Shown here: in pieces, positions 781 through 25,772 of the stretch
Position numbering within the stretch: position 1 is the first letter of the stretch
How the letters are laid out: the number at the start of each line of letters is the position of its first letter
From: a virus
Virus record (IMG/VR): IMGVR_UViG_3300040771_000435
Location: 1 to 25,772 of that record
Reading direction: 5' to 3' (one strand)
DNA length: 25,772 nt
Program-made: the position numbers and the translations under genes
Notes under the pieces: model-generated
Told to the model about the DNA's origin: nothing
The model's input: the letters and a program-made list of their open reading frames with translations, nothing else
The model's database searches: none

Positions 781-1035
781 ATGAACGCAGTCGAAGAAAA
801 CGCTCTTAGAATTTACATCGCTAAAATTGAAAAACAAAATGAGCAAATGCGAGAGCTCTCAACTAGAAAAGGTTTTTATGCTGCTTATTTTGTAGCGTTG
901 AAAACTGCAAAATCCAATAAAGAAGCTTTTGATACCGTCAATGAAAACTATCATGAATTATTTGGAAATTATCGTTATTCAGATTGGAATTCCTTTAAAA
1001 AAATGACGAACTATTATAACAACCAAAAAAAATAA
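781..1035 (+). CDS. Small hypothetical phage protein
   Basis: 84 residues from ATG 781, 19 bp after the terminase stop. The same frame is open back to 679, but that would overlap the conserved end of the terminase, so 781 is preferred. The protein is mostly helical, charged and soluble, with no signal peptide or membrane segment; the C-terminal half is rich in Tyr, Asn and Lys (NYRYSDWNSFKKM). It is the first of a run of very small genes between terminase and portal. I do not recognise a family. Similar short helical proteins at this position in other phages are usually of unknown function. Confidence 0.7.
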   Translation: MNAVEENALRIYIAKIEKQNEQMRELSTRKGFYAAYFVALKTAKSNKEAFDTVNENYHELFGNYRYSDWNSFKKMTNYYNNQKK

Positions 1036-1851: not shown

Positions 1852-1907
1852 CACAAAGTTGAATTATTCAACCATTTAAAAAGCATCGTTCCAATACTTT
1901 TACACTT
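1852..1907 (+). promoter_or_regulatory. Candidate phage late promoter, copy 1 (upstream of portal)
   Basis: The 22 bp at 1852-1873 recur exactly at 8390-8411. They contain the palindrome GTTGAATTATTCAAC (1858-1872, two 7-bp arms around a single T). Twenty-two bases later comes TACTTTTA (1895-1902), one base away from the Bacteroidota -7 consensus TAnnTTTG, followed by CACTTAA. The palindrome-to-box distance is identical in both copies. No TTTG -33 box sits at the usual distance; the palindrome lies there instead, suggesting an activator dimer site centred near -43. The portal ATG is 20 bp after the box. Promoter function is inferred, not shown. Confidence 0.6.
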
Positions 1908-1922
1908 AAATCAAAGGTGTAA
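1900..1922 (+). repeat. Imperfect dyad overlapping the portal start
   Basis: TTACACTT (1900-1907) pairs with AGGTGTAA (1915-1922) over eight positions, one being a G-T pair, with a 7-base loop. The right arm ends in the A of the portal start codon. A different-sequence but similarly placed dyad precedes the tape-measure gene at 8431-8459. Confidence 0.4.
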
Positions 1923-3148
1923 TGAGTTTGAACGGTGCTTTTAGCGAAATGTTTGCTTCTCAAAAAAGAAGTGTAAATACTGATAATTCCTATTTTTCGG
2001 GATTTGGCGGTATATTCTCGCAGGGAACTTCGGGAACAAATATGAGTGCTTCGCGAGCATTAAAACTTTCTGCATTTTACAATGGCGTTGATCAGATATC
2101 AAATGATATTGCGAAAATCCCTTTTTCGATATATCAAAAAGACGGAAAAAACCGTGTTTCACGCTCAAATCATCCTGCATACAATGTAATTGCTATAGAG
2201 CCAAATTCCTTTATGACTTCTTTTGTTTTTCGTAAAACAATGGCGGTTTCATTTTTGATTAAAGGGAATGCTTTAGCGAAAATCAATTCTGATAAAGCAG
2301 GAAAACCTATCTCTACAGATTTTATTAGTTGGGATAGAGTGAATGATATTCGAATGAAAAACGGTGAATTACTTTACGATGTCACCGGTTACAAATATCC
2401 ATTGTTATCTTCTGAAGTATTGCATTTCAAAAACTTATCTCACAACGGAATAAGTGGTGTGGGTGTAATTACAAATGCAGCACAACAATTAAACCTGGCT
2501 ATTGAAGTACAGGAATTTTCTGCTACAAATTTTGAAAACAAAGGGGTTCGTCAAGCAGTTGTTGAAAGTGATAAAACAATTAGTGACGGTAAGGCTAAAA
2601 TAATCGCAGGAATAAAAGCTGCCTTTTCTGAAAAAGATGCTACACGTGTAGCGGTGCTGGATGAAGGCATGAAGTGGAAAGCAATTACCGTAACGCCACA
2701 AGAAGCGCAAATCATTGAGCAAGCACGTTTTAGTATTGAAGATATTGCCCGCTGGTTGAATATCGCACCACACAAAATCAAGTCTTTATTACAGTCTACT
2801 AATAATAATATTGAGCAGCAGTCACTAGATCATGTAAGTGATACGATACAGCCACACGTTACCAACTGGGAACAGGAGTACGCAAAAAAACTGATCCTGC
2901 CATCTGATATCCAGGACGGATATTATGTGCGTGGAAATATGAATGTATTGCTTCGCTCGGATATTAAATCACGTGGTGAATATTACGGAAAAGCAGTCAA
3001 CGGTGGTTGGATGAATAGAAATGAAGTGCGACAATTAGAAGATATGAATGTGGGTCCTGATTTGCTCGAAGAGTTCTTAACTCCGGTCAATACGTTTACA
3101 GAATCACAAATCAAAAACAATTTAAAAACAGTCCAAGATGGAAAGTAA
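1922..3148 (+). CDS. Phage portal protein, HK97 family
   Basis: 408 residues, the usual length for the HK97-type portal family (Phage_portal). The N-terminal region has the typical SASRALKLSAFYNGVDQISND followed by IAKIPFSIYQKDG, and the central part has EVLHFKNL and SATNFENKGV, all family hallmarks. The C-terminal half (RFSIEDIARWLNIAPHKI) matches the clip and stem region. Twelve copies form the ring at the unique vertex through which the terminase pumps DNA. It opens the head module, preceded by a candidate late promoter, and overlaps the protease gene by 11 bp. The ATG at 1922 places the start just after the dyad; no strong Shine-Dalgarno is present, as usual in Bacteroidota. Confidence 0.95.
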   Translation: MSLNGAFSEMFASQKRSVNTDNSYFSGFGGIFSQGTSGTNMSASRALKLSAFYNGVDQISNDIAKIPFSIYQKDGKNRVSRSNHPAYNVIAIEPNSFMTSFVFRKTMAVSFLIKGNALAKINSDKAGKPISTDFISWDRVNDIRMKNGELLYDVTGYKYPLLSSEVLHFKNLSHNGISGVGVITNAAQQLNLAIEVQEFSATNFENKGVRQAVVESDKTISDGKAKIIAGIKAAFSEKDATRVAVLDEGMKWKAITVTPQEAQIIEQARFSIEDIARWLNIAPHKIKSLLQSTNNNIEQQSLDHVSDTIQPHVTNWEQEYAKKLILPSDIQDGYYVRGNMNVLLRSDIKSRGEYYGKAVNGGWMNRNEVRQLEDMNVGPDLLEEFLTPVNTFTESQIKNNLKTVQDGK

Positions 3149-3800
3149 AGATTATATAAAAAGCCTTAGCGACACGGCAGAACGTCGTTTCTTTTCATCT
3201 GAAGTTCGTGCTGAAAAGCGTGAAGATACAGTGGATGGAACGTCTTCTTTAATCGAAGGTTATGCTGCCAAATTTAATTCGGATACTGTGATTGGTAATT
3301 ATTACCAGTTCAGAGAAAAGATTAGTCCAGGTGCATTTGATGATGTGTTGAATGATGATGTACGCTGTCTTTTTAATCATAATCCTAACTACGTTTTGGC
3401 ACGTTCTAAGGAAGGAAAAGGAACGCTGACATTATCGGTTGACGAAATCGGATTGAAATATTCTTATGTAACGCCTGAAAGGTCGTTTGCAAAGGATTTA
3501 GAAGATGCAATCGCTTTGGGTGATGTTTCGCAATCTTCTTTTGCTTTTGATATCGAAGAACAAACGTGGACCGAAGTAGAAGGTGAAATTCCGATGCGTA
3601 CAATTGTACGCTTCAAAAAATTATATGATGTGGCTCCGGTAACGTATCCAGCTTATGCAGATACGGAAGTGGCAAAAAGAAGTTTAGATGCTTTTATCGA
3701 AAAAACACATGCGAAAGACGATTCGAAAGAGACTCGCTCGGATAACAATAAAGAGCTCAACGCTTTTGAAGCTCAATTAATTATTAATTCAAATTTATAA
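3138..3800 (+). CDS. Prohead maturation protease (HK97, Peptidase_S78)
   Basis: 220 residues, starting inside the end of the portal gene. The fold markers of the S78 family are in order: LIEGYAAKFN (about 38-47), KISPGAFDDVL (61-71), then CLFNHNPNYVLAR with the catalytic His at about 81, and QSSFAFDI with the catalytic Ser at about 134. SPGAF and SxSFxF are diagnostic. The enzyme removes the scaffolding (delta) domain of the capsid protein and itself during prohead maturation. The next gene, the capsid protein, has exactly such an N-terminal extension. Function is well supported by motifs and gene order. Confidence 0.93.
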   Translation: MESKDYIKSLSDTAERRFFSSEVRAEKREDTVDGTSSLIEGYAAKFNSDTVIGNYYQFREKISPGAFDDVLNDDVRCLFNHNPNYVLARSKEGKGTLTLSVDEIGLKYSYVTPERSFAKDLEDAIALGDVSQSSFAFDIEEQTWTEVEGEIPMRTIVRFKKLYDVAPVTYPAYADTEVAKRSLDAFIEKTHAKDDSKETRSDNNKELNAFEAQLIINSNL

Positions 3801-3807
3801 CAAGCAA

Positions 3808-5109
3808 ATGAAAAAATCTGCTATTATTTTGCAACAAAGAGCTCAAAAGATTGAAGCTCAAAAGGCGCTTCATGCTACTGCTGACGGCGAAAAAAGAAGC
3901 TTGAATGAGACTGAAACTGCAACGTTTCGTTCTCTTCAAAAAGAAATCGACGGATTAACGGATCAGGCTAATGATGCGTTAGCGTATGAAGAAAATCTTC
4001 GTTCAATAGAAGGATCTGAAGGAACTGATTTTGTAGGCGAAGGAGATTCTGTAAAGAAAAAAAAGACTACACAACGTGCTTACTCACTTGCCGCGCACAT
4101 TCGTGGTGCAATGGGCGGGAAGTTGACAGGTGCTGAAAAAGAAGCTCAGGAAAAAGGAATTGCGGAACGTGAAGCGCGTGGTTTAGAAATAAACGAAAAA
4201 GCGGTTTATATCCCTGAGGAATTGATGACTAGAGCTACTCAGCAAACTGTTACGCAGGATGCAGGTGAGTATGGTGGTCAATTGGTTTCTGATGCGGCTC
4301 CAAGAGTGATTGATGGTTTTATGCCAAAATTATTTTTGGAAGATATGGGTGCTAATGTTTGGACTGGTTTATCAGGTGGTGATATTCCTTTGCCAGTGTC
4401 TTCAAACTATACTTTTCAATGGTTAGAAGAAGGTCAAGCAATTACAGGTCAAAAACAAAAGTTTGTTGGTCCTAAATTGTCTCCAAAACGTGCAGGTGCG
4501 TTAGTGTCAATCACTAAAAAACTGTTGATGCAAACTTCTATTGATGTAGAAGCTACAATCAGAACGAGATTGCAAGATGGAATCCGTAGAACATTGGAAG
4601 GTGTTGCTATTCAAGGTTTGGCTGCAAACAATGAGCCAGTTGGTATTTTGAATAAAGTAGGCGTTTTAGCTTCTGCTAATCAAGTTGCAGCTGGTGCTGC
4701 TACTTATGCAAACGTGGTAGAATTACAAGGATTGGTTGAAGATGCGGATGCAACTGAAATCTCTTTGGGATACTTATGTAATCCTAAATTACGTGCCAAA
4801 TTGAAAACTATTACAAAAGGTGCTGATATGGGTGGGGCAATTTGCCAAAATGGATTAATCGATGGGATGCCAACAGTTTCAACTTCATTAGTGAAGAAAA
4901 TTGCAGGAACTCCTGACACGTATCCATTGATTTACGGTGACTTCTCTCAACTTTATGTTGGTGTTTGGGGTGGAATCGAAATCATTGTTGATGCAGTATC
5001 TACAGAAGCGGCTTCGAAAGCATCTGTGAATTTAATCATCAACATGGAAGCGGATGTTCAAATCGCACATCCAGCAGCATTTGCAAAAAACAATTTCATG
5101 ACTGCATAA
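3808..5109 (+). CDS. Major capsid protein, HK97 fold, with N-terminal delta domain
   Basis: 433 residues. The first 100 or so are charged and helical (coiled-coil-like LRSLQKEIDGLTDQANDAL type), matching the scaffolding domain that the adjacent protease removes. A basic stretch (VKKKKTTQRAY) lies near the expected cleavage zone. The rest matches the Phage_capsid family: an N-arm rich in Gln and Thr (RATQQTVTQDAG), the FQWLEEGQAITGQKQKF segment with the E-loop region, and the A-domain ending KASVNLIINMEADVQIAHPAAF. It builds the icosahedral shell. A strong hairpin terminator follows, which would separate capsid transcription from the genes downstream. Confidence 0.95.
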   Translation: MKKSAIILQQRAQKIEAQKALHATADGEKRSLNETETATFRSLQKEIDGLTDQANDALAYEENLRSIEGSEGTDFVGEGDSVKKKKTTQRAYSLAAHIRGAMGGKLTGAEKEAQEKGIAEREARGLEINEKAVYIPEELMTRATQQTVTQDAGEYGGQLVSDAAPRVIDGFMPKLFLEDMGANVWTGLSGGDIPLPVSSNYTFQWLEEGQAITGQKQKFVGPKLSPKRAGALVSITKKLLMQTSIDVEATIRTRLQDGIRRTLEGVAIQGLAANNEPVGILNKVGVLASANQVAAGAATYANVVELQGLVEDADATEISLGYLCNPKLRAKLKTITKGADMGGAICQNGLIDGMPTVSTSLVKKIAGTPDTYPLIYGDFSQLYVGVWGGIEIIVDAVSTEAASKASVNLIINMEADVQIAHPAAFAKNNFMTA

Positions 5110-5121
5110 GCAGTTTAATAT

Positions 5122-5150
5122 AAAGAAAAGAGTTTCGGCTCTTTTCTTTT
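5122..5150 (+). terminator. Intrinsic terminator after the capsid gene
   Basis: Perfect 11-bp stem AAAGAAAAGAG / CTCTTTTCTTT with a TTTCGG loop (5133-5138), followed by T and A residues. It lies 12 bp after the capsid stop codon and 14 bp before the next gene. The stem is AT-rich, so termination is probably partial, which would favour capsid mRNA over downstream genes. Confidence 0.7.
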
Positions 5151-5163
5151 AATATTTTACAAA

Positions 5164-5385
5164 ATGGCAAAAAAAATAAAGATTGTAGCCTTATTGCCTT
5201 TGTTGGCGTATGGTTTACCGCAAAGCGAAGGTCAGAGTGTTTCTGTTGAAAAGAAACAAGCGGATGAAATTATAGAAGCTGGTTACGCTAAATTATATGT
5301 AGCGGCTAAAGGTGAAGTTGTTGTTGAAGAAGAAGGCGCTGAAGAAGAAGGTGCTTATTTCGAAGGAACTGAATTGGTAAAATAA
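5164..5385 (+). CDS. Small acidic protein downstream of the capsid gene
   Basis: 73 residues. The N-terminal half has VALLPLLAYGLPQSEGQSVSVEKKQADEIIEAGYAKLY, resembling short proteins that commonly follow HK97 capsid genes and share a pattern of a small beta segment followed by ADxLIxxGYAxxY. The C-terminal third is very acidic (VVVEEEGAEEEGAYFEG). A role in the capsid or neck, for example as decoration or assembly factor, is plausible from position only. The ATG at 5164 follows the terminator, so expression needs read-through or an unseen promoter. Confidence 0.75.
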   Translation: MAKKIKIVALLPLLAYGLPQSEGQSVSVEKKQADEIIEAGYAKLYVAAKGEVVVEEEGAEEEGAYFEGTELVK

Positions 5386-5399
5386 TAAAAAACTAAGGT

Positions 5400-5960
5400 A
5401 TGATGACTCATTTTTATACATCCGTAACGGCCGAAGCTCCGATTCTTTCTTTGGAAAAAGCGAAGAAACAACTTCGTATTGATGCGGATAATACAGACGA
5501 AGATGATTTGCTGACATCTTACATCGATGCTGCACAAGTAGCTTGTGAGGACTATATGAATCGTGCTATTGGGAAGCGTAATTTCATTATGGAGTTAAGC
5601 GCTTTTCCATCAAGTATAACCTTCGAACGTAATTATGAAAATGATGTCATCACTAAGGTTGAGTATTACGCACCTGGTGAAACAACGCTTACCACTTTAG
5701 CAGTGGATCAATACAAACTGCGCAATTCTAATATTGTGGAATGTTTTGACGTCAAATTTATTTCGTTACCGGAAACGGATAAACGCGATGATGCTGTAAT
5801 CGTAACTATCGAGCAAGGTTTTACATTGGCGCAATGTCCTAAACCTATTTTGCAAGCCATCAACTTGAAGCTTTCGGATTTTTACGAACGTAGAGAAGAC
5901 CGCGAGCAAGGGAATAATCCTGCATCCAATAATTTACTGAGAAAGTACCGAAAATATTAA
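5400..5960 (+). CDS. Head-tail connector protein, gp6-like
   Basis: 186 residues. The N-terminal part (LSLEKAKKQLRIDADNTDEDDLLTSYIDAAQVACEDYMNRAI) is the signature of the phage gp6-like head-tail connector family: LxxxKxxLRID, then an acidic loop, then an AxxxxExYxxR helix. The middle is beta-rich and the end returns to a helix (PILQAINLKLSDFYERRED), also typical. In HK97-like phages this adaptor ring binds below the portal. The start may be either ATG of the tandem ATGATG at 5400. The next gene begins 2 bp after its stop, so it forms one translational block with the neck genes. Confidence 0.87.
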   Translation: MMTHFYTSVTAEAPILSLEKAKKQLRIDADNTDEDDLLTSYIDAAQVACEDYMNRAIGKRNFIMELSAFPSSITFERNYENDVITKVEYYAPGETTLTTLAVDQYKLRNSNIVECFDVKFISLPETDKRDDAVIVTIEQGFTLAQCPKPILQAINLKLSDFYERREDREQGNNPASNNLLRKYRKY

Positions 5961-5962
5961 TC

Positions 5963-6295
5963 ATGGAAAAAGCACCTTTCATAGGCCAAATGGACCGAAA
6001 AGTTCAGATAGTAAAGTTTGTGGCAACACGTAACTCTACTAATGAAAAAGAAGTTACTCAGGAAGTAATTGCGGAACCGTGGGCGCACATGATGGATGTT
6101 TCAGGAAGTGAAGATGTAGAGGGAAAAATACGGTATTTGGTGAATAAGAAATTTACAATTCGATACAATCAAATGGTGAATAATCTAAAAAACCAACTCG
6201 GATTGCTGTATGAAGGAAAATTGTATGACGTGGTAAATGTTATCGAGATTGGACGCAAAGCGCACCTGCAATTAATCGTGAAAAACTATGAGTAA
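5963..6295 (+). CDS. Head-tail joining / head-closure protein (SPP1 gp16-like)
   Basis: 110 residues of the Phage_H_T_join type. MDRKVQIVKF at the start, EPWAHMMDVSGSED in the middle, KKFTIRYN, and LYEGKLYDVVNVIEIGRKAHLQLIVKNYE at the end reproduce the family pattern (ligation of W/A-rich strand, then a YDV strand, then LxxxxK). It closes the head after packaging and forms the tail docking surface. It overlaps the next gene by 8 bp. Position between the gp6-like connector and the gp10-like protein fits the standard order. Confidence 0.87.
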   Translation: MEKAPFIGQMDRKVQIVKFVATRNSTNEKEVTQEVIAEPWAHMMDVSGSEDVEGKIRYLVNKKFTIRYNQMVNNLKNQLGLLYEGKLYDVVNVIEIGRKAHLQLIVKNYE

Positions 6296-6836
6296 TCTAG
6301 GTATCACAGTAAGTGGATTTCCTGAACTCAAAGAGAAGATCAGGGAGCTGGCAAACGATAAAGACAAGAAAAAAGAAGTCCTTCTTATTCTACGTCAAGT
6401 CGCACGTCCTTCTCTTGTAGCAGCACGAAATGCGGTTCCGGTAAGTAGTAAATCGCATATTGCACGGGGCAAAAAAATTGAATCCGGAAACCTTAAAAAA
6501 TCGCTTGGATTAATTACTTCAAAATCGAGTAATCCAATGATTTTAGCAGGTCCAAGAGCAAAAAACGGAAACGATGGTTGGTATGGTCACATGGTGCACG
6601 GTGGGCACGCTATTTACCGTAATACGGAGAATATCCGTAGAACGCTTCGAAACGGACGGAAAAAAAGCGTGCTTGCTCGTGTTACTAATAAACGCAAAGG
6701 AAACACAGTTGGGCGTGTGCGAGCAATCCCGTTTATGGATATTGCATACGAACAAACAAAAAACACGGTTACGGCTGATGCTCAGGATAAAATGGCAAAA
6801 TTCATTCAAAGAAGAATCAATAAATTAAGCAACTAA
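6288..6836 (+). CDS. HK97 gp10-like neck/tail protein
   Basis: 182 residues. It begins with a GITVSGFPELKEKIREL segment, then a helix of the type KxxxxxLRQVARPSLVAARNAVPV, then basic beta strands with GKKIESGNLKKSLG and a C-terminal helix after RAIPFMDIAYEQTKNTV. This is the layout of the HK97 gp10 / tail-component family, found between head-closure and tail-terminator genes. The protein is strongly basic. A likely role is joining tail to head. The ATG overlaps the previous gene and the stop shares its A with the next ATG (TAATG). Confidence 0.82.
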   Translation: MSNLGITVSGFPELKEKIRELANDKDKKKEVLLILRQVARPSLVAARNAVPVSSKSHIARGKKIESGNLKKSLGLITSKSSNPMILAGPRAKNGNDGWYGHMVHGGHAIYRNTENIRRTLRNGRKKSVLARVTNKRKGNTVGRVRAIPFMDIAYEQTKNTVTADAQDKMAKFIQRRINKLSN

Positions 6837-7177
6837 TGTTAGAACTATCAGACGAAATAACGGACTTTTTATTGACTGAAACGGTTTTTACAACGGTTAT
6901 GAATGATCGTTTAGCGCCTGTAGTTTCTTCTGCTGATGAAACGTATCCTTTTGCAAATTATGTGATTCGGGAACAAACAGGACAAAGTTTAGATGGTGAC
7001 GCGTATAGTGTGACATTGTTGTTTTATTTCGAACAAAATAGCTATCGAAAATGTGTAGCTTTTTTGGACCAAATGAAACCTATTATCAAAGAAAAATACG
7101 ATTGGCAAAACTCCGAAATTGAATTTGTAGAAGTAGATCAGTCTTTTGTGGGAATTATTAATTTTAATAAAATATAG
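6836..7177 (+). CDS. Tail completion/terminator protein (DUF3168-like)
   Basis: 113 residues. The beginning (SDEITDFLLTETVFTTVMNDRLAP) and the middle (YPFANYVIREQTGQSLDGDAYSVTLLFYFEQNSYRKCVAFLDQM) follow the DUF3168 tail-completion pattern: N-terminal helix, PYVVY-type strand, then a strand-helix with a serine/tyrosine pair. The C-terminal strand reads FVGIINFNKI. The protein caps the tail tube at the head-proximal end and sets tail length with the tape measure. It sits directly before the tail tube gene, as expected. Confidence 0.8.
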   Translation: MLELSDEITDFLLTETVFTTVMNDRLAPVVSSADETYPFANYVIREQTGQSLDGDAYSVTLLFYFEQNSYRKCVAFLDQMKPIIKEKYDWQNSEIEFVEVDQSFVGIINFNKI

Positions 7178-7182
7178 AAATT

Positions 7183-7602
7183 ATGGCAGGAAATACCTAT
7201 GCTGGAAAAAATTTAAGAATTAGAGTAGATGGAAAAACAATCTTCCATGCTACAGAATGTACATTTACAACTTCGCGTAACATGGAAAGCATCGCTTCCA
7301 AAGATACAAACGGGGAGCAAGTAACACCAGGGAATTATACTTGGGGAGTTTCTACAAACTTTTTAGTGGCAAATAAGCCAACTGCGTCATCTACTCAAAT
7401 TGGTACAAAAGAAGTTATTGATATTTTTCAAAACGGAACTGAAGTTGAAGTACAATTCTCTACTAACATTGTAGGTGATGTAATCATTACAGGACAAACG
7501 TTTATTGAAGGAATGAACATGTCAGCAGGAACTAATGGAGTGGCAACTGGGGATTGCTCTTTCAAAGGAAATGGTGACTTTATTACAACAGTAGGTGTTT
7601 AA
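7183..7602 (+). CDS. Major tail tube protein
   Basis: 139 residues, beta-rich. GKNLRIRVDGKTIFHATECTFT at the start, ATN-type SRNMESIASKDTNGEQVTPGNYTWGVS in the middle, and GTEVEVQFSTNIVGDVIITGQTFIEG with a glycine-rich end fit the TP901-1-type major tail protein family (Phage_tail_2). Hexameric rings of this protein stack to form the tail tube. Context agrees: it follows the tail terminator and precedes the tail-assembly chaperone pair. The stop TAA shares its A with the next ATG (TAATG). Confidence 0.87.
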   Translation: MAGNTYAGKNLRIRVDGKTIFHATECTFTTSRNMESIASKDTNGEQVTPGNYTWGVSTNFLVANKPTASSTQIGTKEVIDIFQNGTEVEVQFSTNIVGDVIITGQTFIEGMNMSAGTNGVATGDCSFKGNGDFITTVGV

Positions 7603-7943
7603 TGGATGAAATCGTTTTACAATTAGGAAATAAAAGTTTCAAGCTGAAATTCGGCTTGAAACTTTTTAGAGTTTTGGGTCGAAAATGGCAATTACCTGGC
7701 ATTGATGATGTCGTACAAAAAATCGCTGTTTTAGATTCCGCTGATGGAAAACTGACGTTTGAGCAAATTGACGTTTTAGAAGTGATTTTAGTTTCGGCTA
7801 TTGAGTGTGGTGGGAATGAAGTAAACCTTTTTGAATTTGATATTATCGATGAATTTTTTAAGGATCCAAAAGCTTTGGAGAATTTTAAAAACGCATTGGT
7901 TAATTCGATGCCAACGAATGAACCGGAAGAAACGGGAAAGTAG
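7602..7943 (+). CDS. Tail assembly chaperone, short form (gpG analogue)
   Basis: 113 residues read in the 0 frame to TAG 7941-7943. Short acidic helical protein directly after the tail tube gene and before the tape measure, the standard position of lambda gpG. VLQLGNKSFKLKFGLKLFRVLGRKW at the start and the final MPTNEPEETGK are visible. The last two sense codons are GGA AAG, part of the slippery sequence G GGA AAG that lets a fraction of ribosomes make the long form (7602-8317). Both forms bind the tape measure during tube polymerisation and are absent from mature particles in lambda-like phages. Confidence 0.88.
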   Translation: MDEIVLQLGNKSFKLKFGLKLFRVLGRKWQLPGIDDVVQKIAVLDSADGKLTFEQIDVLEVILVSAIECGGNEVNLFEFDIIDEFFKDPKALENFKNALVNSMPTNEPEETGK

Positions 7944-8317
7944 AAGGTCACGAAAGTGACGAACCACCACCACCTTTAACCTGGGACAAACTAGAACAAA
8001 TAGGATTAGGCGAACTGCGAATGACATTTGATGAAATGTATGCGCTTACACCACGTTCTTTTTTTAATGCCGTAAATGGCCAACGAAAAAAAGAAGATGC
8101 CTTTTCAAAAGAACGTTGGATAATGACTCGTGAAATAATGTACGCCGTTATGAAACCGTACCTGGAACAAGGAATCGAAAAACATGACGTGCTTACTTTT
8201 GAATGGGAACAAAAACAACTGCAACAAATAGCAGCTCAAAAACAAGAAACAATCTTTGAAGACCTGGAACGCATGAACGCTTTTTGGGAACGACAAGATA
8301 ATGCGAAAGCAGAATAA
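7602..8317 (+). CDS. Tail assembly chaperone, frameshifted long form (gpGT analogue)
   Basis: A -1 shift at G GGA AAG (7934-7940) joins the short chaperone to a second open frame that runs to TAA 8315-8317, giving about 238 residues. The added part begins VEGHESDEPPPPLTWDKLEQ, a proline-rich hinge, then helices with LGELRMTFDEMYALTPRSFF and a Trp/Glu-rich end. The frame has no good start before ATG 8021, and the coding signal is continuous from the slip site, so I do not treat 8021-8317 as a separate gene. This mirrors lambda gpGT, where the T domain recruits the tail tube protein. A hairpin with a GAAA loop lies 6 bases after the heptamer. Confidence 0.87.
7934..7960 (+). promoter_or_regulatory. 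Programmed -1 ribosomal frameshift site
   Basis: Heptamer GGGAAAG at 7934-7940, in phase as G GGA AAG, the same as in lambda G-T. After a 6-base spacer comes a 5-bp hairpin GTCAC-GAAA-GTGAC (7947-7960) closed by a GNRA tetraloop. The 0-frame stop TAG directly follows the slip site. Confidence 0.85.
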
Positions 8318-8350
8318 TATGTTTTCTTTTTTATTTATTTTTTTAGGCGG

Positions 8351-8380
8351 AAAACCCAAATAGAGATATTTGGGTTTTTT
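8351..8380 (+). terminator. Strong intrinsic terminator after the chaperone genes
   Basis: Perfect 12-bp stem AAAACCCAAATA / TATTTGGGTTTT (8351-8362 and 8367-8378) with a GAGA loop, followed by more T residues. It ends the head and neck transcription unit; the second copy of the candidate late promoter starts 10 bp later. Confidence 0.85.
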
Positions 8381-8389
8381 GTTTTATGT

Positions 8390-8448
8390 CACAAAGTTGA
8401 ATTATTCAACCTTTTAAAATACACCCTAAAACTACTTTTAACACTTAA
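8390..8448 (+). promoter_or_regulatory. Candidate phage late promoter, copy 2 (upstream of tape measure)
   Basis: Second copy of the element at 1852. The first 22 bp (8390-8411) are identical, including the palindrome GTTGAATTATTCAAC (8396-8410). The next bases share TTTAAAA, then diverge, and TACTTTTA reappears at 8433-8440 exactly 22 bases after the palindrome, followed by ACACTTAA. The element lies between a strong terminator and the tape-measure ATG at 8463, which is where a new promoter is needed. The lack of a -33 TTTG and the palindrome in its place suggest control by a phage activator. Confidence 0.65.
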
Positions 8449-8459
8449 TTAAAAGTAGT
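8431..8459 (+). repeat. Perfect 11-bp dyad before the tape-measure start
   Basis: ACTACTTTTAA (8431-8441) and TTAAAAGTAGT (8449-8459) are exact reverse complements around a 7-base centre CACTTAA. The left arm includes the TACTTTTA box; the right arm ends 3 bp before the start codon. It could be an operator on the promoter or an mRNA hairpin hiding the start. Confidence 0.55.
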
Positions 8460-8462
8460 CAC

Positions 8463-10955
8463 ATGGCATCATTAGCGAGTATCAACATTCGATTTGCAGT
8501 TGACCTTCGGGAGTTTTCCTCGGAGATGCAAAATTCGTTGAGAACTATTGATAAAGTAGGGCAAAAGTTTCAAGCAGTAGGACGCTCGATGTCGGCTTTT
8601 GTGACGTTGCCAATATTAGCAGCAGGAGCTGCAGCCGTGAAATTTGCAAGTGATTATCAGGAGTCATTAAATAAAGTAGATGTTGCTTTTAAATCATCTT
8701 CTACAGGAGTAAAAGAATTTTCGAAAAGCTCACTAGATAGTTTTGGTATTGCTGAAGGGACTGCATTAGATATGGCGGCTGCTTATGGCGATATGGGAAC
8801 CAGTATGGGTTTGACTACAGGTCAAGCGGCTAAAATGTCTACTTCTTTAGTAGGATTGGCAGGTGATTTAGCTTCTTTTAAAAATATTTCTATTGATATT
8901 GCTAATACTGCAATTTCGGCAATTTTTACTGGTGAAACCGAAAGTTTGAAAAAGCTTGGTATCGTTATGACTGAAGTTAATTTAAAGCAATTTGCTTTGA
9001 ATTCGGGCATCAAAAAGAACTACGAGCAAATGACGCAGGCTGAAAAAGTGCAATTGCGATACAATTATATTTTATCTGTTACTAAGAACGCACAAGGCGA
9101 TTTTGAACGTACACAAGGCGGTGCGGCCAATCAAACAAGAATATTTACAGAAAGTTTAAAGCAAGTAGGGCAACAACTAGGAGCCGTTATTTTGCCTTTA
9201 TTCACGTCAGTAATTACTAGTATAAATGAAAAAATAAAAGCGTTTTCGAAGCTATCTGAAGGCACTAAAACAACCATTGTTGTTATTGCTGGATTGGTGG
9301 CTGTTATTGGTCCTTTGTTACTGGGAATTGGCGCAATACTGTCTATTATTCCTTTTGTTGTAGCTGGATTTGCAGTTATATCCGGTGCAATAGTTCCTAT
9401 TTTGGCAGGATTGGTTTTATTGACTGGCGCTTTATTGATTGCAAAAAATGCTTTTTCAGATACTGCAAAATCTGTAGTGACGCTTACTGATAATCAAAAG
9501 TTGATTCAAAAAGTTACTGATGAAGCGACAGCTTCGATTGTAGATCAAAAAGCGGAACTGGATAACCTTTTGATTACGGCTCGAAACGAAAACGAAACAA
9601 AAGTCAATCGCTTAAAAGCAATCCAGGCAATCAACAGGATATCACCTGAATATTTAGGCAATCTTACTCTAGAAAATATAGGTACGGATAAAGCTCGTAT
9701 GGCTATTGAAAAATACAATGGGGCATTGATATCCGGTGCAACGGCTCGTGCCGCTTCTCGTTTGCTAGAACAAAACCAAGCTGATAAAATTAAAGCGGGT
9801 TTTGAACGTGAAAAAGCATTAGCTGATTATAATGCAAAACGTGAAAATGCAATTGGTCAAGGTTGGGAAGCTGAAAAGGCTTTTTATGAAGAGAATAACC
9901 GTTTGATGCAATTTGCTAATGAAGCATTGGACCGTAAAAATGCAAAATATGATTCGGAAGCTAAATTGCTAACTGAAATCTATAATAAAAACAAGCAAAA
10001 TTTAGACTTGCTAAACGGCAACACGGTTAAAGCTGATGTGGTTGCGCCTGCTAAAATTAAAAAAGAAAAAGCAGCAAAAGCACCTGCTAATTTAAGTGCT
10101 TTTGATAGTAGTTTGCCAGTTGCTGTTTCTGCAGGAAGTATTGAATCTTATGATCGTGAAATAGCAAAGTTAATCGAGTTTAGAGACCAGTTTACCACTA
10201 CAGCTGAACAGGTTGAAATGGCAAAAGAAGCGATTAAGAACGTTGAATTTGCTAAAGCGATAAACTTTGATCCTTCTTCATTGATAAAAGCTACTGAAAC
10301 GACTGAGCAAATGATGCAAAGATTAGCTGCTGCCGTTGGTGGTGCTAAAGCTAGTCTTGAAGTGGAGCAAAACGCTATGGTGGTAAATGCCACGAATTTT
10401 AACGAGCAGTTTTCGCAGGTTTGGCAAAATACTATTGGTGGTTTTGCGGAGAATTTTGGTGCTTTAATTGGGCAATTCGCAGCGGGTGGCGCTTCGTTAT
10501 CTTCTATAGGTAATTTGTTTTTAATGACATTAGCTGATATGGCTATTCAGGTAGGTAAAATTGCTATATCTGTGGGTATAGCGGTTTTAGGAATTAAAAA
10601 AGCATTAGAGTCATTGAATCCTGTTGTGGCTATTGCAGCGGGAATTGCTTTGATTGCTTTAGGGACTTTTGCAAAATCTGCTTTATCAAAATCTTCCGGG
10701 CAAAAACCGCAAGCTTTTGCAAATGGTGGTATTGTTGGGGGCTCTTCATTTTATGGCGATAAAATATTGGCTCGTGTAAATAGTGGGGAATTGATTTTAA
10801 ATAATTCTCAACAAAAATCTGTTTTTGGTGCTATGAATAAAGCAGTAAATGCTAGTGATGTAGCCGTTCAAATAATGGGAAATTTAAGTGTAAGCGGTAA
10901 TGAACTGCAATTGCTTTTGGCTCGTACTGATAAACGTAATCAAAGAACTCAATAA
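8463..10955 (+). CDS. Tail tape measure protein
   Basis: 830 residues. The N-terminal third is the conserved phage tail tape-measure region (SMSAFVTLPILAAGAAAVKF, then TQAEKVQLRYNYIL and FERTQGGAANQTR). Two long hydrophobic stretches follow, about residues 269-330 and 692-740, as expected for a protein that enters the cell envelope during DNA injection. A lysine- and alanine-rich helical middle (about 400-560) separates them. The C-terminus has the frequent GGIVGGSSFYGDKILARVNSGEL motif. Its length fixes tail length; at about 830 residues a tail of roughly 120 nm is expected from the usual 1.5 Angstrom per residue, which is inference. The stop overlaps the next ATG (TAATG). Confidence 0.93.
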   Translation: MASLASINIRFAVDLREFSSEMQNSLRTIDKVGQKFQAVGRSMSAFVTLPILAAGAAAVKFASDYQESLNKVDVAFKSSSTGVKEFSKSSLDSFGIAEGTALDMAAAYGDMGTSMGLTTGQAAKMSTSLVGLAGDLASFKNISIDIANTAISAIFTGETESLKKLGIVMTEVNLKQFALNSGIKKNYEQMTQAEKVQLRYNYILSVTKNAQGDFERTQGGAANQTRIFTESLKQVGQQLGAVILPLFTSVITSINEKIKAFSKLSEGTKTTIVVIAGLVAVIGPLLLGIGAILSIIPFVVAGFAVISGAIVPILAGLVLLTGALLIAKNAFSDTAKSVVTLTDNQKLIQKVTDEATASIVDQKAELDNLLITARNENETKVNRLKAIQAINRISPEYLGNLTLENIGTDKARMAIEKYNGALISGATARAASRLLEQNQADKIKAGFEREKALADYNAKRENAIGQGWEAEKAFYEENNRLMQFANEALDRKNAKYDSEAKLLTEIYNKNKQNLDLLNGNTVKADVVAPAKIKKEKAAKAPANLSAFDSSLPVAVSAGSIESYDREIAKLIEFRDQFTTTAEQVEMAKEAIKNVEFAKAINFDPSSLIKATETTEQMMQRLAAAVGGAKASLEVEQNAMVVNATNFNEQFSQVWQNTIGGFAENFGALIGQFAAGGASLSSIGNLFLMTLADMAIQVGKIAISVGIAVLGIKKALESLNPVVAIAAGIALIALGTFAKSALSKSSGQKPQAFANGGIVGGSSFYGDKILARVNSGELILNNSQQKSVFGAMNKAVNASDVAVQIMGNLSVSGNELQLLLARTDKRNQRTQ

Positions 10956-13735
10956 TGGCTTATTATATCGATATAATAGACACTACAAGTCCTTTGACTA
11001 AATTAGTCTTAGAGGATGCTTCTGCTTCTGGAATTGTCCTGAAGTGGAACGGTGGCGACTCTAAGGATGAAATGGCTATTGTGAGCAGCGAATTCAACTT
11101 TGATATGTTGACTAAAACTGCAGAAGATGCGGCGTTTATCGAATTCTTTACTGGTGACGAACATCGTTATAAGGTTTTGGTGAAAAATTATGTGGGTGAT
11201 AGTGTTGTTTGGCAAGGGTACATCCTTCCTGATTTATATTCTGAACCATATAAAAACGTGTGTTTCTTTGTTTCGTTTACGGCCACTGATGGATTGGGTC
11301 GTTTGAAAGGAAAATACCTTCCGGATGAATACTATTCTCGTGAAAAATCATTGATTGATATTTTTTGTCAATGCTTAAAATTAACTGGTTTGGAGCTTGA
11401 TTTATATTTTAATCCTGCTATCGAAAATTTTACCAATAAAGACTGGAATACCATTTATGTTGATACGGCTGATTTTTTAAACAAAGAAAAAAAACAAGAT
11501 GCTTACAAAATCCTTCAAACTTTATTAGAAGACACGCTTTGTGTTTGCTACCAAGCGGATAATCGCTGGTATATTGAGGGTATAAACACCCGTCACTTAC
11601 GTAAAGTAACTTATAAAGTGTATGATGTTGATGGCCAGTTTGTAAGCAATGTGGTTTATAATCGTTTGTTGAAACAAATAACGCCATTGGTAACACCAAC
11701 TGTTACTATTATACCGCCTTACAACGAAATCACAATTACGCATCCAAAAATAGAGCCTTCGATACCTAAGACTGCATGTAAAGAAGTAAATGATGGCTGG
11801 GCACTAGTTACGGGTGTCAAGGGCACTATTTATAATTCGGATTGGGTGGGACACGGTGGCTTGTATGCGATTTGTGACCAACCGGATTATTATACGCGTA
11901 TCTATAATGAAGGTCATTTTACGGGTGATGGATCTCTTTCTTATCCTCAGGATAATACGCGTTGGGTTTCATTAAAAGAAAAAATATACTTTGCTAAGGC
12001 GCAAAAAATAACCTTCAATTTAGAGTTTAGTATTGTAAAATTTATTTCTGTAGTTTCTGATGTGATTGATTATGAGTTATGGAAAAATCCTTTTAAGTAC
12101 GAAATTGTACTGAATGGCGTGGTTGTTTTTACCAATTTTAAAGAAAACGTTTCGGATAATGAAAACATATTTTTTGAAGAAAGTGGTACTGTAAAAAAAG
12201 AATTTCAACATATTGTTACAGCTGATTCTTTGCTTGATATTCGGATTTATGCGCCTTTTGGTTCGCTTATTACTACTAAAATTATGGGTATTGAATTGCG
12301 TTCAGCAGCAGTATCTGTAATAGGATTTAAAGATGAGGAAATTATTACTGATTTAATTAGCGGTGATTTTACTGTTGATAAAGAATTAGAATTGACTTAT
12401 GGTGATGACAAATCAGGAACTTCAAAAGGGTTCCGATTGAAAAAACTAAAAGAACAAACTACATTTTTTAACGCTATTCAAGCACCTATTTTATATGGCT
12501 TTTCAAATAATGGAAAATTTTATAGTGTAATGAGTTTGCAGGATGCAAATTTAATTGATGAAAACCGTTTTCAAGTTTTTAAAGAAGGCGTTTTGATTCC
12601 TGTTATAGATGTTTTTTACAATTTTAATGATGGCGAGCAAATGGTTGTTGAAACCGAAATAGCTTATACTTCAGGTTTTTTTGTAGTACATAAATACGCC
12701 GTTGACGATTTACTTGACAATAGAACAACCTGGCAACAATGGACCGATGCTATTTATCAAATAGAAAACACATCCTACGCTAAAACGGTATCTAATATTT
12801 ACCGAAGAATGTTTAATGCAGCACACGAAAAAATAGATTGTGTGGCTTTAAATGCTGTAAAATTTAACGATGTTGTTTTGTTTAAATATGTTTATCCAAA
12901 AGATTTTTACCTGCTTAATTGTAGTTGGAATCTTGACGAAAACAAAACTACCATTACAGTAGGGCGTTCTATTTATAAAGATGCTACAGCGACCGTTCCA
13001 GGTGATGATAATGTGCCGCCAATTGTATTGGCTGGTGATGATATTTATTTAACAGATTTACAAACTACAGCTTCGCTTACGTCAAATGCTTATGATCCTG
13101 ATGGGTTTATTGCTAGTCAGCAATGGACCAAAACCAGTGGGACTTTTGGTGGCATCATCGATTCGCCTTTTGCTTTGAATACTGATTTAACCAATTTAAC
13201 TGGTGATTATTATACCTATCAAATTCAAGTAACAGATAATGATGGCGCTACGGCATTAGATACCGTCAATGTAATTCGAAAAAAAGACTATCAAATCATT
13301 TTTGAAGAGCTGTATTACAATGAGGTTGAAACGCTTGAAAATCATGCGGTGCAAGCACGATACAAGCTAGTGATTGATCCAAATATTCCTGAGGGTTTTG
13401 TGCTGAACCTGGAAGGTATTTATAAAATATTAGTAGAAGTAAGTAGATGGAGTGTTTACGGCTATCTGCTTATTGAAAAAAATGGAGTGGTGTTAGAGGA
13501 ATATGTGACTTATGGAGCGTTTTCAGTTCCTGTTTTACTGAATTATATAGCTACTGATGAAATCTTCTTTACTATTGAAGCAAGTGCTTCTGCAGGTTCT
13601 TTGAGTGGCGAAACAGCTTCTTTTGCAAGTATTAATTCAAGTGTTCAGTTTGATACAGTAAACTTTATAAATGGTCAAGGTACGGTGATTAATTTACCGG
13701 CAAAAATTGAAATTAGAGCAGCAGTAAGAGAATAA
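10955..13735 (+). CDS. Large tail-tip/baseplate protein with PKD-like domain
   Basis: 926 residues directly after the tape measure, where the distal tail and tail-associated (Dit/Tal) proteins are usually encoded. The N-terminal region (YIDIIDTTSPLTKLVLEDA, WNGGDSKDEMAIVSSEFNF, FFTGDEHRYKVLV) resembles the beta-rich tail-tip proteins of Bacteroidota phages. Residues about 686-775 form a PKD/Ig-like module: PPIVLAGDDIYL, SNAYDPDGFIASQQWTKTSG and YTYQIQVTDNDGATALDTV. The last 150 residues are another beta-rich domain that may bind the host. No lytic or protease motif is visible. I am confident of tail-tip location, less so of exact role (hub, adhesin, or both). Confidence 0.75.
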   Translation: MAYYIDIIDTTSPLTKLVLEDASASGIVLKWNGGDSKDEMAIVSSEFNFDMLTKTAEDAAFIEFFTGDEHRYKVLVKNYVGDSVVWQGYILPDLYSEPYKNVCFFVSFTATDGLGRLKGKYLPDEYYSREKSLIDIFCQCLKLTGLELDLYFNPAIENFTNKDWNTIYVDTADFLNKEKKQDAYKILQTLLEDTLCVCYQADNRWYIEGINTRHLRKVTYKVYDVDGQFVSNVVYNRLLKQITPLVTPTVTIIPPYNEITITHPKIEPSIPKTACKEVNDGWALVTGVKGTIYNSDWVGHGGLYAICDQPDYYTRIYNEGHFTGDGSLSYPQDNTRWVSLKEKIYFAKAQKITFNLEFSIVKFISVVSDVIDYELWKNPFKYEIVLNGVVVFTNFKENVSDNENIFFEESGTVKKEFQHIVTADSLLDIRIYAPFGSLITTKIMGIELRSAAVSVIGFKDEEIITDLISGDFTVDKELELTYGDDKSGTSKGFRLKKLKEQTTFFNAIQAPILYGFSNNGKFYSVMSLQDANLIDENRFQVFKEGVLIPVIDVFYNFNDGEQMVVETEIAYTSGFFVVHKYAVDDLLDNRTTWQQWTDAIYQIENTSYAKTVSNIYRRMFNAAHEKIDCVALNAVKFNDVVLFKYVYPKDFYLLNCSWNLDENKTTITVGRSIYKDATATVPGDDNVPPIVLAGDDIYLTDLQTTASLTSNAYDPDGFIASQQWTKTSGTFGGIIDSPFALNTDLTNLTGDYYTYQIQVTDNDGATALDTVNVIRKKDYQIIFEELYYNEVETLENHAVQARYKLVIDPNIPEGFVLNLEGIYKILVEVSRWSVYGYLLIEKNGVVLEEYVTYGAFSVPVLLNYIATDEIFFTIEASASAGSLSGETASFASINSSVQFDTVNFINGQGTVINLPAKIEIRAAVRE

Positions 13736-23689: not shown

Positions 23690-24010
23690 ATGAATACAAC
23701 CACTTTCAACCTTGAAAAAGCCAAAATAATAGAAGATGCCGTGTGTATGGAGTTTGGTTGTAGTATTTACGAAATCGTGTGTTTCAAGAATACTTTTTTC
23801 AAGAAAGTGGTTGTTTTTCTTTTGTCGAAAGTTCATGGTTATAATAAGCGAAATATTGGGCACAAGTACCAAATCACTTACTTATATGTGCCTACAGTAG
23901 TAGAAGAACTGGAATGGCAGTTTAAGAATGTAGAAGCGTTCCAGGTGGCGATTAATAATGTTTGTAAAAAAATAGGATATGAGCAGAATTTGGACTTTGC
24001 AGGAAGATAA
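23690..24010 (+). CDS. DnaA domain IV-like DNA-binding protein
   Basis: The frame is open from 23675, but ATG 23690 lies after the previous stop and is preferred, giving 106 residues. VCMEFGCSIYEIVCFKNTFFKKVVVFLLSKVHGYNKRNIGHKYQI resembles the DnaA C-terminal helix-turn-helix: V-x4-F-x-I, a basic linker, a hydrophobic helix, then xxIGxxY. It has no ATPase domain. In Bacteroidota phages such mini-DnaA proteins are found near replication genes. The last 32 bp overlap the HNH nuclease gene. Function (origin or DNA binding) is inferred; resemblance is moderate. Confidence 0.6.
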   Translation: MNTTTFNLEKAKIIEDAVCMEFGCSIYEIVCFKNTFFKKVVVFLLSKVHGYNKRNIGHKYQITYLYVPTVVEELEWQFKNVEAFQVAINNVCKKIGYEQNLDFAGR

Positions 24011-24716
24011 TATTTTGCGTGAAAAATATCCTGATTTATTGACTTCTGATTTGATGAAGTTTTTACCAGGAAGGACATATTCAAGCATTACGGGTCACGC
24101 AAATGTTTTAGGAATAAAGAAAAGCGATTTGTTTTTTTCTCTTGGTATGGGTGGTCGAATATCTAATAGCAATAACATTGGTATCGATACTAGATTTAAA
24201 ATAAATAAACCTGGTTGGAATAAAGGCAAAAAACAAAGTGATTACATGTCTCCTGAAAAAATAGAGCGAACAAAAGCGACTCGATTTAAAAAAGGTCAAG
24301 ATCCACACAATACGGTTCCTATAGGAACAGAACGAATTTCGAAAGATGGTTATGTTGAAATAAAAATAAGGCATTTAAAAAATGGGGATGCTAATAATAA
24401 AAATTTTGTTTCGAAGCATCGAATGATTTACCAAGAACACTTTGGTCCAATACCGGACAATTATAATGTGGAATTTATTGATGGTAATAGAATGAATTTC
24501 GAGCCTTCAAATTTTATTTTAAGAAGTAAAACAGAAAACTTTTTAAAAAATACAATGTCGGACGCTTCTGTTGTGAAACGTTTTTTAGGAGTAAAGGAAC
24601 CGGAGTTGGTTGATCGAATTATCAAGGACATGCCGGAAGTTATAAATCTAAAAAGGAATGCGATTAAATTAAACCAAAAACTAAATAAAAAAGAAAATGC
24701 AAAATCTACTAAATAA
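23979..24716 (+). CDS. HNH endonuclease with N-terminal Myb/SANT-like domain
   Basis: 245 residues. RIWTLQEDNILREKYPDLLTSDLMKFLPGRTYSSI is a Myb/SANT-like helix-turn-helix (W-x-EED-x-L ... GRTxxSI). A basic region with FKINKPGWNKGKKQS and RFKKGQDPHN then leads to the HNH core: IGTERISKDGYVEIKI, KHRMIYQEHFGPIPDN and YNVEFIDGNRMNFEPSNF. The central HNH His is replaced by Phe (VEF-IDGN), a variant I know from similar phage HNH proteins. It is a free-standing nuclease, typical of homing endonucleases, overlapping its upstream neighbour by 32 bp. It may be a mobile nuclease or a phage function; activity cannot be judged. Confidence 0.82.
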   Translation: MSRIWTLQEDNILREKYPDLLTSDLMKFLPGRTYSSITGHANVLGIKKSDLFFSLGMGGRISNSNNIGIDTRFKINKPGWNKGKKQSDYMSPEKIERTKATRFKKGQDPHNTVPIGTERISKDGYVEIKIRHLKNGDANNKNFVSKHRMIYQEHFGPIPDNYNVEFIDGNRMNFEPSNFILRSKTENFLKNTMSDASVVKRFLGVKEPELVDRIIKDMPEVINLKRNAIKLNQKLNKKENAKSTK

Positions 24717-25143
24717 ATTAAACGGAAAAGCTTTTAAGTACTGCGGAAAAACCTGCATAGTAAAAGAGACGAAAATTGTGAATCAAAGAGCAGTGATACT
24801 TACTGATGGGCAGTCATTTGTGAAAACAAATTCGGAGCTGGAAGCTTTTATGGATGATATTGAGATCGTGAAAATAGAAAAAACAACTGCAATAGCAGCT
24901 CCTGCAAAGTCTTTCAATCAACCGGATGAATTAGTAGTGAAACCATCGCCTTTGCAAGCTGAAATTGTCGTGGATGAGAGTACTGCTCAGAAGGTTTCGA
25001 ATAAGCTTATGGAGGTTTTTGATATGTTATCTGACGCTCCAACTGAAGAGACTTATAAAAAAGCTCAGGCGATGGTTAATGTATCGAATTCTATCGTGGC
25101 GGTGCAAATGGCTCAGATTAAGTTTTTATCGCTTAAAAAGTAA
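24697..25143 (+). CDS. Hypothetical early protein (148 aa)
   Basis: Overlaps the HNH gene by 20 bp. Residues 1-55 are a compact beta domain (GKAFKYCGKTCIVKETKIVNQRAVILTDGQSFVKTNSELEAFMDD), then an Ala/Pro-rich linker (about 62-85), then a helical C-terminus (AQKVSNKLMEVFDMLSDAPTEETYKKAQAMVNVSNSI). No recognised family, and no catalytic motif. It sits directly before the replication initiator, so a replication accessory role is possible. Confidence 0.72.
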   Translation: MQNLLNKLNGKAFKYCGKTCIVKETKIVNQRAVILTDGQSFVKTNSELEAFMDDIEIVKIEKTTAIAAPAKSFNQPDELVVKPSPLQAEIVVDESTAQKVSNKLMEVFDMLSDAPTEETYKKAQAMVNVSNSIVAVQMAQIKFLSLKK

Positions 25144-25147
25144 TATT

Positions 25148-25772
25148 ATGGACCACTTCAAACTGCTTCGGGATTTTTGGGATTTTGCGTTTGAAAATCC
25201 TGAGAAAATATCGCCAAATCATTGCGCCTTGTATTGTTTTATAATTAATCATTCCAATCGATTAGGGCAAAAGATAAAATTAGGTTTACCTACAGAAATG
25301 GCAAAAGAAGCGATTGGAATAAAATCTTACAATACTTATATCAATACTCTTAACGATTTAGTTGGCTGGGGTTTTATAAAACTGTTAGAACGAAGCAAAA
25401 ATCAGTACAGTTCTAATATAGTTGCTTTATCATATTTTGATAAAGCACTTGATAAAGCACTTGATAAAGCAATGTTAATGCAGCAAAGAAAGCAAAGTGA
25501 AAGCAGTAGTGAAAGCATTAGTGAAAGCATTAGTAGTATAGATAAACTAATAACTAATAAAGAAGAACTAATAACTAAGAGAGAAGAAAGAGAAAATTTC
25601 GCTCTCTCTTTTTTAGAAATTAATCATCCTTCAGATCATGAAGTTTTAACGATGCAATTCAAGAAGCAAATAAATGATTATGAAAAGTTTTTGCAAATGT
25701 TTGAAGCGACTATTGAGCAAGAAGGATTGGAATTTAAAAAAAATGTAATCGTAGGGCGTTTTAAAAAATATG
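25148..25772 (+). CDS. Replication initiator/DnaD-like protein (cut by window end)
   Basis: ATG 25148 opens a frame that reaches the right edge (208 codons). The N-terminal domain is a winged helix as in phage replication initiators of Bacteroidota: FWDFAFENPEKISPNHCALYCFIINHSNRLG, GLPTEMAKEAIGIKSYNTYINTL and GWGFIKLLERSKNQY. A low-complexity linker with DNA repeats follows (DKALDKALDKA, SESSSESISESISS), then a helical domain beginning DHEVLTMQFKKQINDYEKFLQMF. The layout matches initiators such as lambda O that carry their origin inside the linker. Downstream part lies outside the window. Confidence 0.78.
   Translation, partial: MDHFKLLRDFWDFAFENPEKISPNHCALYCFIINHSNRLGQKIKLGLPTEMAKEAIGIKSYNTYINTLNDLVGWGFIKLLERSKNQYSSNIVALSYFDKALDKALDKAMLMQQRKQSESSSESISESISSIDKLITNKEELITKREERENFALSFLEINHPSDHEVLTMQFKKQINDYEKFLQMFEATIEQEGLEFKKNVIVGRFKKY
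25439..25578 (+). other. Candidate replication origin inside the initiator gene
   Basis: Three sets of direct repeats: GATAAAGCACTT three times (last copy 9 bp) at 25439-25471 with 12-bp period; AGTGAAAGCA(G/T)T three times at 25496-25531 with 12-bp period; and AACTAATAACTAA twice, at 25545-25557 and 25566-25578, in a very AT-rich stretch. Iterons followed by an AT-rich zone inside an initiator gene is the lambda ori design. Confidence 0.5.

Follow-up and report, generated by a model that had tools for sequence, protein, structure and literature searches.

The window analysed here (25,772 nucleotides, positions 1 to 25,772 of the IMG/VR virus record IMGVR_UViG_3300040771_000435) carries two copies of a compound element ahead of the portal and tape-measure genes, and we consider it likely, with a probability of about 0.78, that these are late promoters activated by an 84-aa phage protein and fitted with a hairpin that locks the translation of read-through RNA. 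The case is built on sequence comparison, which establishes the element, its spacing, the symmetry of its arms, their covariation with a protein and the complementarity of the hairpin.

Layout and conservation of the repeated element

The 22-bp sequence CACAAAGTTGAATTATTCAACC has only two copies in the record, even when 3 mismatches are allowed, and includes the 15-bp palindrome GTTGAATTATTCAAC with a 6-3-6 layout (Table 1). In both copies the box TACTTTTA starts exactly 22 nt past the palindrome, the two fillers in between being identical at 13 of 22 bases, and the predicted leaders measure 15 nt before the portal gene (copy 1) and 18 nt before the tape-measure gene (copy 2). The repeat, the palindrome, the box at 22 bp and the filler matches that the first-pass annotation had given were all reproduced, and the neighbours are as it had described them, with copy 1 before the portal gene and copy 2 after a terminator-like hairpin. 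Elsewhere in the window, the ORF at 7602-7943 contains in its coding sequence a 17-nt inverted repeat with a 1-nt gap (7632-7666).

Table 1. Positions of the repeated element, its neighbours and the candidate reader in the window
Feature	Position	Strand	Remark
84-aa protein, candidate late activator, directly after terL	781..1035	+	top covariation with the operator
Predicted recognition helix, codons 69-81	985..1023	+	K74 (1000-1002) and Y78 (1012-1014) covary
22-bp repeat, copy 1	1852..1873	+	sequence identity
Putative palindromic operator GTTGAA-TTA-TTCAAC, copy 1	1858..1872	.	centre ~ -42
Putative -7 box TACTTTTA, copy 1	1895..1902	+	predicted +1 ~1907; numbering from PMC6847099
Start-region hairpin, copy 1	1896..1927	+	5' arm from -7 box to +1, 3' arm with portal start codon
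Portal gene, 408 aa	1922..3148	+	first gene of late unit 1
Terminator-like hairpin ahead of copy 2	8348..8381	+	-17.2 kcal/mol, z -6.5
22-bp repeat, copy 2	8390..8411	+	sequence identity
Putative palindromic operator, copy 2	8396..8410	.	
Start-region hairpin ACTACTTTTAA/UUAAAAGUAGU, copy 2	8431..8459	+	ends 3 nt before tape-measure start codon
Putative -7 box TACTTTTA, copy 2	8433..8440	+	predicted +1 ~8445
Tape-measure gene, 830 aa	8463..10955	+	first gene of late unit 2

The -7 element of F. johnsoniae has been described as T-12 A-11 H H T-8 T-7 T-6 G-5, accompanied by a weak -33 element (PMC6847099). The box, which had been proposed to be the -7 element, agrees with this flavobacterial consensus (TAHHTTTG) except for an A in place of the G at -5. 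Across 43 aligned copies the T, A, T, T and T of the box are invariant or nearly so and most of the filler is variable; the last base of the box is A rather than G in 42 of the 43. The same alignment bears out the proposal that the -33 element is missing, as none of the copies has a TTTG 19-20 nt upstream, where AACC(A/T)TTT is found instead. When the box is set to the flavobacterial numbering, the palindrome spans -49 to -35. The reading of the element as a promoter with a dimeric activator is supported, with the palindrome centred at -42 and not near -43 as first suggested; promoter activity and start sites are predictions from the sequence. All 43 elements keep the base directly after the palindrome (the second C of AACC) and the A that precedes it unchanged, though both break the dyad; this suggests that contact is made asymmetrically, perhaps by sigma region 4. 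A scan for sigma-70-type promoters found 26 where 26.5 were expected.

The element is real and far beyond chance: it stands ahead of the portal and tape-measure genes in dozens of related phages and prophages, and in 13 of 13 close portal relatives it lies just upstream of the portal start (with a degenerate copy in L013). A scan with fixed spacing found it in a set of related contigs. When the spacing was left open in a scan of IMG/VR (8-36 nt allowed from AACC to TAnTTTTA), at least 25 of the matches listed were at 21 nt, which corresponds to 22 nt after the palindrome; 22 of these 25 have perfect 6-3-6 palindromes, and palindromic matches at all other spacings combined number 5 among the matches listed. 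In the relatives, where the first-pass annotation had advised looking, the palindrome, the box and the spacing are kept before the portal and tape-measure genes and the filler diverges; the arms of the palindrome vary, with the dyad symmetry retained. Prophages in Flavobacterium and Aquimarina genomes carry the same element with different arms (GGCATA-AAT-TATGCC, GGAACA-TAT-TGTTCC and GTACAA-ACT-TTATAC). Two Flavobacterium genomes with a prophage contain the exact 47-nt pattern solely at the portal and tape-measure genes of that prophage. A search of 299 Flavobacterium-group genomes gave 4 occurrences of the pattern and likewise 4 of the reversed control; two of the former are in one prophage, and another has a relative of the candidate activator 4.5 kb away. 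A megablast search of INPHARED and a search of Rfam returned no match. Third copies are present in three phages, at 14591 before terL (G018), at 14599 before a small protein that is probably exported (G013) and at 13647 upstream of the tape-measure gene (G015).

In each of the 18 phages that carry two or three copies, the arms agree from copy to copy (18/18); in 20,000 shuffles, such agreement was reached by 11 phages at most. Imperfect arms are repeated too: G015 has GTTAAA/GTTATA in three copies, and G027 and G028 each have GTACAA/GTATAA in two. As the arms vary among phages and agree within a phage, a trans-acting reader shared by the whole phage is implied by these sequences. The centre triplet differs between copies in 3 of the 18 phages, and the filler can differ as well. 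Gene conversion is an unlikely cause of the identical arms, since the filler, the hairpin described below and sometimes the centre differ between copies. Two complete elements stand in tandem before the tape-measure gene of one contig (L089, 3300040770_000521; rc 3577 and 3656), GTTGAA first and GTTACA second, with a box and a hairpin on each; this two-flavour tandem may be an intermediate of an operator swap. Tandem GTTGAA and GTTACA elements are also found in G020.

The 84-aa protein and its candidate recognition code

We compared the arm sequence (the flavour) with all shared protein families of the phages. Whole-protein distances gave no convincing association with flavour among 28 families (best p 0.037, for terL). 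Among the 6,266 alignment columns of all shared families, the top association with flavour was that of residue 74 of the 84-aa protein; for the portal, the tape measure and the small ORFs between them no association was found. Every column of the 84-aa protein was then scored against every half-site base in 31 non-redundant protein-operator pairs, which included relatives from IMG/VR and host genomes and for which the operator was picked by palindromicity alone. The strongest pair is residue 78 with base 6, where R or K goes with C (9/9) and other residues go with A (21/22) or T (1/22; Fisher p=5e-8). Residue 74 corresponds to half-site bases 4-5: K occurs with GA, V mostly with AA or AT, and R with AC in 7 of 9 cases. 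Lysine and arginine contact guanine and valine faces thymine methyls, and the covariation agrees with this protein-DNA chemistry.

The flavours are dispersed over a tree built from residues 1-68 (for GTTACA 5 changes, compared to 5.3 in shuffles), and between neighbours that are 93%, 91% and 87% identical, flavour and residue 74 have switched together, in one case along with residue 78; thus shared ancestry does not explain the covariation. Exceptions to the residue-74 rule are R74 with AA in the GGGAAC phages and the weak-palindrome pairs L146, L256 and L310. A further exception is G011/L013 (V74, R78), where the degenerate portal copy has GTTAAC, as the code predicts, and the tape-measure copy GTTACA. 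An apparent exception with Q74 in G004 was discarded: the gene in question, at 10556 just upstream of the tape-measure copy, encodes a second paralogue, and R74 is found in the true orthologue. A match to the code would be predicted for L245 (V74), which shares its sample of origin with G006 (GTTAAA), but the two contigs do not overlap. The code appears best supported within the GTTNNN class.

AlphaFold2, run with a 34-row alignment, predicts four helices (residues 3-26, 29-40, 46-61 and 69-81; pLDDT 91), which would correspond to an N-terminal dimerising helix (3-26) and a helix-turn-helix, and places residues 74 and 78 one turn apart on the last helix. Judged by its covariation with the arms, the 84-aa protein is the best candidate for the reader of the palindrome. 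The idea of a phage-specific activator in the first-pass annotation is supported; the likely gene, the recognition code and the start-region hairpin had been missed there.

The family has no relative in Pfam, PHROG, NCBIfam or the PDB; Foldseek and VIA-align searches of the PDB gave no convincing match and hence no structural relative of known function, and the matches in the viral structure library are uncharacterised proteins. In INPHARED, tblastn found a sole relative (37%), the hypothetical gp08 of Cellulophaga phage phi39:1, which has merely a weak palindrome upstream of its portal. The gene is present in 15 of 399 and 7 of 397 host genomes (a few percent), so it is phage-borne. A shortened relative, whose helix ends RYDNFLQFCGMIRN, is encoded in a Flavobacterium genome (L301, G204 C1:958500-965800). 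An array of near-identical repeats carrying TACGTTTG boxes is found 4.5 kb away; its palindromes are GTTGAA-AAG-TTCAAC and GTTAAC-TAA-GTTAAC, and it lies ahead of an excisionase-like ORF. In G003, a XerC-like recombinase (24702-25502) is accompanied by a 73-aa XRE protein on the minus strand (25563-25784); XerC-like and XRE genes, besides an integrase, are often found just upstream of terL in related phages.

Start-region hairpin and proposed mechanism

Nearly every copy of the element contains an inverted repeat that reaches from the box to the start codon: 44 of 51 copies have a folding z better than -1 relative to shuffles of the same base composition, and a convincing hairpin is absent in 7 of the 51. 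Unlike the palindrome, the hairpin differs in sequence between the copies of one phage, with its complementarity kept; native arms pair with a mean of -6.1 kcal/mol, compared to -3.4 kcal/mol for arms exchanged between elements (p 0.0002). The predicted late RNA begins at or after the 5' arm. The computed accessibility of the start region is 0.32 in the read-through RNA and 0.61 in the late RNA, whose start is a predicted one, and control ORFs gain 0.03. We infer that the hairpin silences the translation of read-through RNA.

We likewise infer binding, activation, start sites and timing, and propose that each copy acts as an activator-dependent late promoter. Early and terL-linked transcription would yield the 84-aa protein, the dimer of which would bind the 15-bp palindrome with one recognition helix (69-81) per 6-bp half-site, with residue 74 responsible for bases 4-5 and residue 78 for base 6. 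At about -42 the dimer would replace the missing -33 element and recruit host RNA polymerase to the -7 box, and the head genes (from the portal) and tail genes (from the tape measure) would start together once the activator accumulates. Read-through RNA from the upstream units would be poorly translated, its start region being covered by the hairpin, and terminators would add to the silencing; RNA begun at the late promoter would lack the 5' arm and have an open start region. In G018, the element before terL would give a positive loop.

We favour activation over repression because the -33 element is missing and the palindrome lies at -42. Covariation would support binding equally well if the 84-aa protein repressed the late promoters from an operator over their upstream region, and a palindrome beside a promoter is a common operator position. 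However, a promoter that lacks a -33 element in 43 aligned copies would be weak unaided, neither the -7 box nor +1 would be blocked by a repressor bound at -49 to -35, and the gene is grouped with terL, ahead of the units, instead of lying beside the lysogeny repressor, so that we regard repression as unlikely. It is similarly improbable that another phage protein or a host regulator reads the palindrome and that the 84-aa gene, which lies ~1 kb from the portal copy, covaries merely through linkage: the linked ORFs and the portal do not covary, the tape-measure copy, 6.5 kb off, agrees as well, and the association falls in the predicted recognition helix. A host regulator is further disfavoured by the different flavours within one host genus. 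Among phage proteins, the DnaA-domain-like 106-aa and HTH_17-like 103-aa proteins are also widespread early proteins; both were rejected as readers, as they are near-identical in G022 (GTTACA) and G000 (GTTGAA), where the operators differ (92% identity for the 106-aa protein). The G022 contig does not include its own 84-aa gene. The 106-aa protein (23690-24010) resembles a lone DnaA domain IV by eye and has no match in Pfam.

The palindrome and the downstream repeat both fold, and the latter retains complementarity while its sequence changes, as would be expected if the two were hairpins of a leader RNA and TACTTTTA a stem arm instead of a -7 box. We give this RNA-based explanation very little weight, since the copies of one phage have in common the sequence of the palindrome, beyond its complementarity, and this sequence tracks the protein helix; moreover, TAnTTTTA keeps its fixed distance even when the stem lies downstream of the box (L141, L199 and L265), and the box equals a known -7 element. 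Chance or a recent duplication without function would fit the mere two copies in the window, but is already refuted by the fact that the element is conserved at these two gene starts in dozens of phages and prophages, and has a negligible probability. Beyond the model of activated late promoters with a hairpin lock, we lean slightly towards a broader view: the 84-aa proteins may form a family of late activators, so far undescribed, in Bacteroidota phages, in which the two-residue code and the operators have switched together repeatedly in freely recombining mosaic genomes, which would insulate the late regulons of co-resident prophages, with a translational lock in each promoter.

Relation to known regulatory systems

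The timing of late genes in Bacteroidota phages is essentially undescribed in the literature searched, and the model offers a concrete, testable answer to how these flavobacterial viruses may turn on their late genes. By naming the promoter, the probable activator and a base-by-residue code, it turns an unannotated 84-aa ORF into a directly testable candidate regulator, and the repeated co-switching of operator and protein amounts to a natural experiment in regulatory specificity. With the primary-sigma promoters of Bacteroidota (TTTG / TANNTTTG) the element shares the -7 box and short leaders (13-38 nt, median 17); it differs from them by the lack of a -33 element, by the palindrome at -49 to -35 and by the A for G at -5. 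The late activators Ogr of P2 and Delta of P4 are small zinc-finger phage proteins that use a dyad upstream of late promoters. A small phage protein and a dyad site upstream of late promoters would be common to both systems; the site described here is nearer to the promoter, and the cysteine zinc-binding motif of Ogr/Delta is missing, the 84-aa protein of the window being devoid of cysteine.

In the Pm promoter of phage Mu, the Mor dyad is centred at -43.5 and replaces the -35 element (PMC4287176). A comparable dyad in place of a -35-type element is found here, with its centre at -42, a fixed spacing and a predicted +1. Shared with Mor/C (Pm; late lys, I, P and mom) would be a small phage activator, here a candidate, whose dimer occupies a dyad that overlaps or replaces the -35 element, the use of host RNA polymerase at a promoter with the proximal box alone, and related activators with non-overlapping specificity. 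Unlike Mor/C, the system described here has an 84-aa protein with a predicted N-terminal dimerising helix, a -7 box of the flavobacterial type and a start-region hairpin that overlaps it. The Mor family in Pfam gave no match for 16 members at E up to 1, and NCBIfam gave none for 34. By analogy, the element would work like Mu Mor/C with no detectable family relation.

In the leaders of the T4 genes e, soc, 49 and I-TevI, a hairpin of the long early RNA conceals the start region, and since the late promoter is located in the 5' strand of this hairpin, the late RNA is open (PMC3014915). Here, likewise, the start region is computed to be paired in read-through RNA, and the 5' arm is missing from the predicted late RNA. 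T4 uses a phage sigma and clamp together with Shine-Dalgarno sites, whereas a host-type -7 box and an upstream operator without a Shine-Dalgarno site are found here, and, unlike in the T4 leaders, the hairpin is placed on the portal and tape-measure genes. The arrangement of a putative promoter within a hairpin resembles, independently, the solution of T4 gene e.
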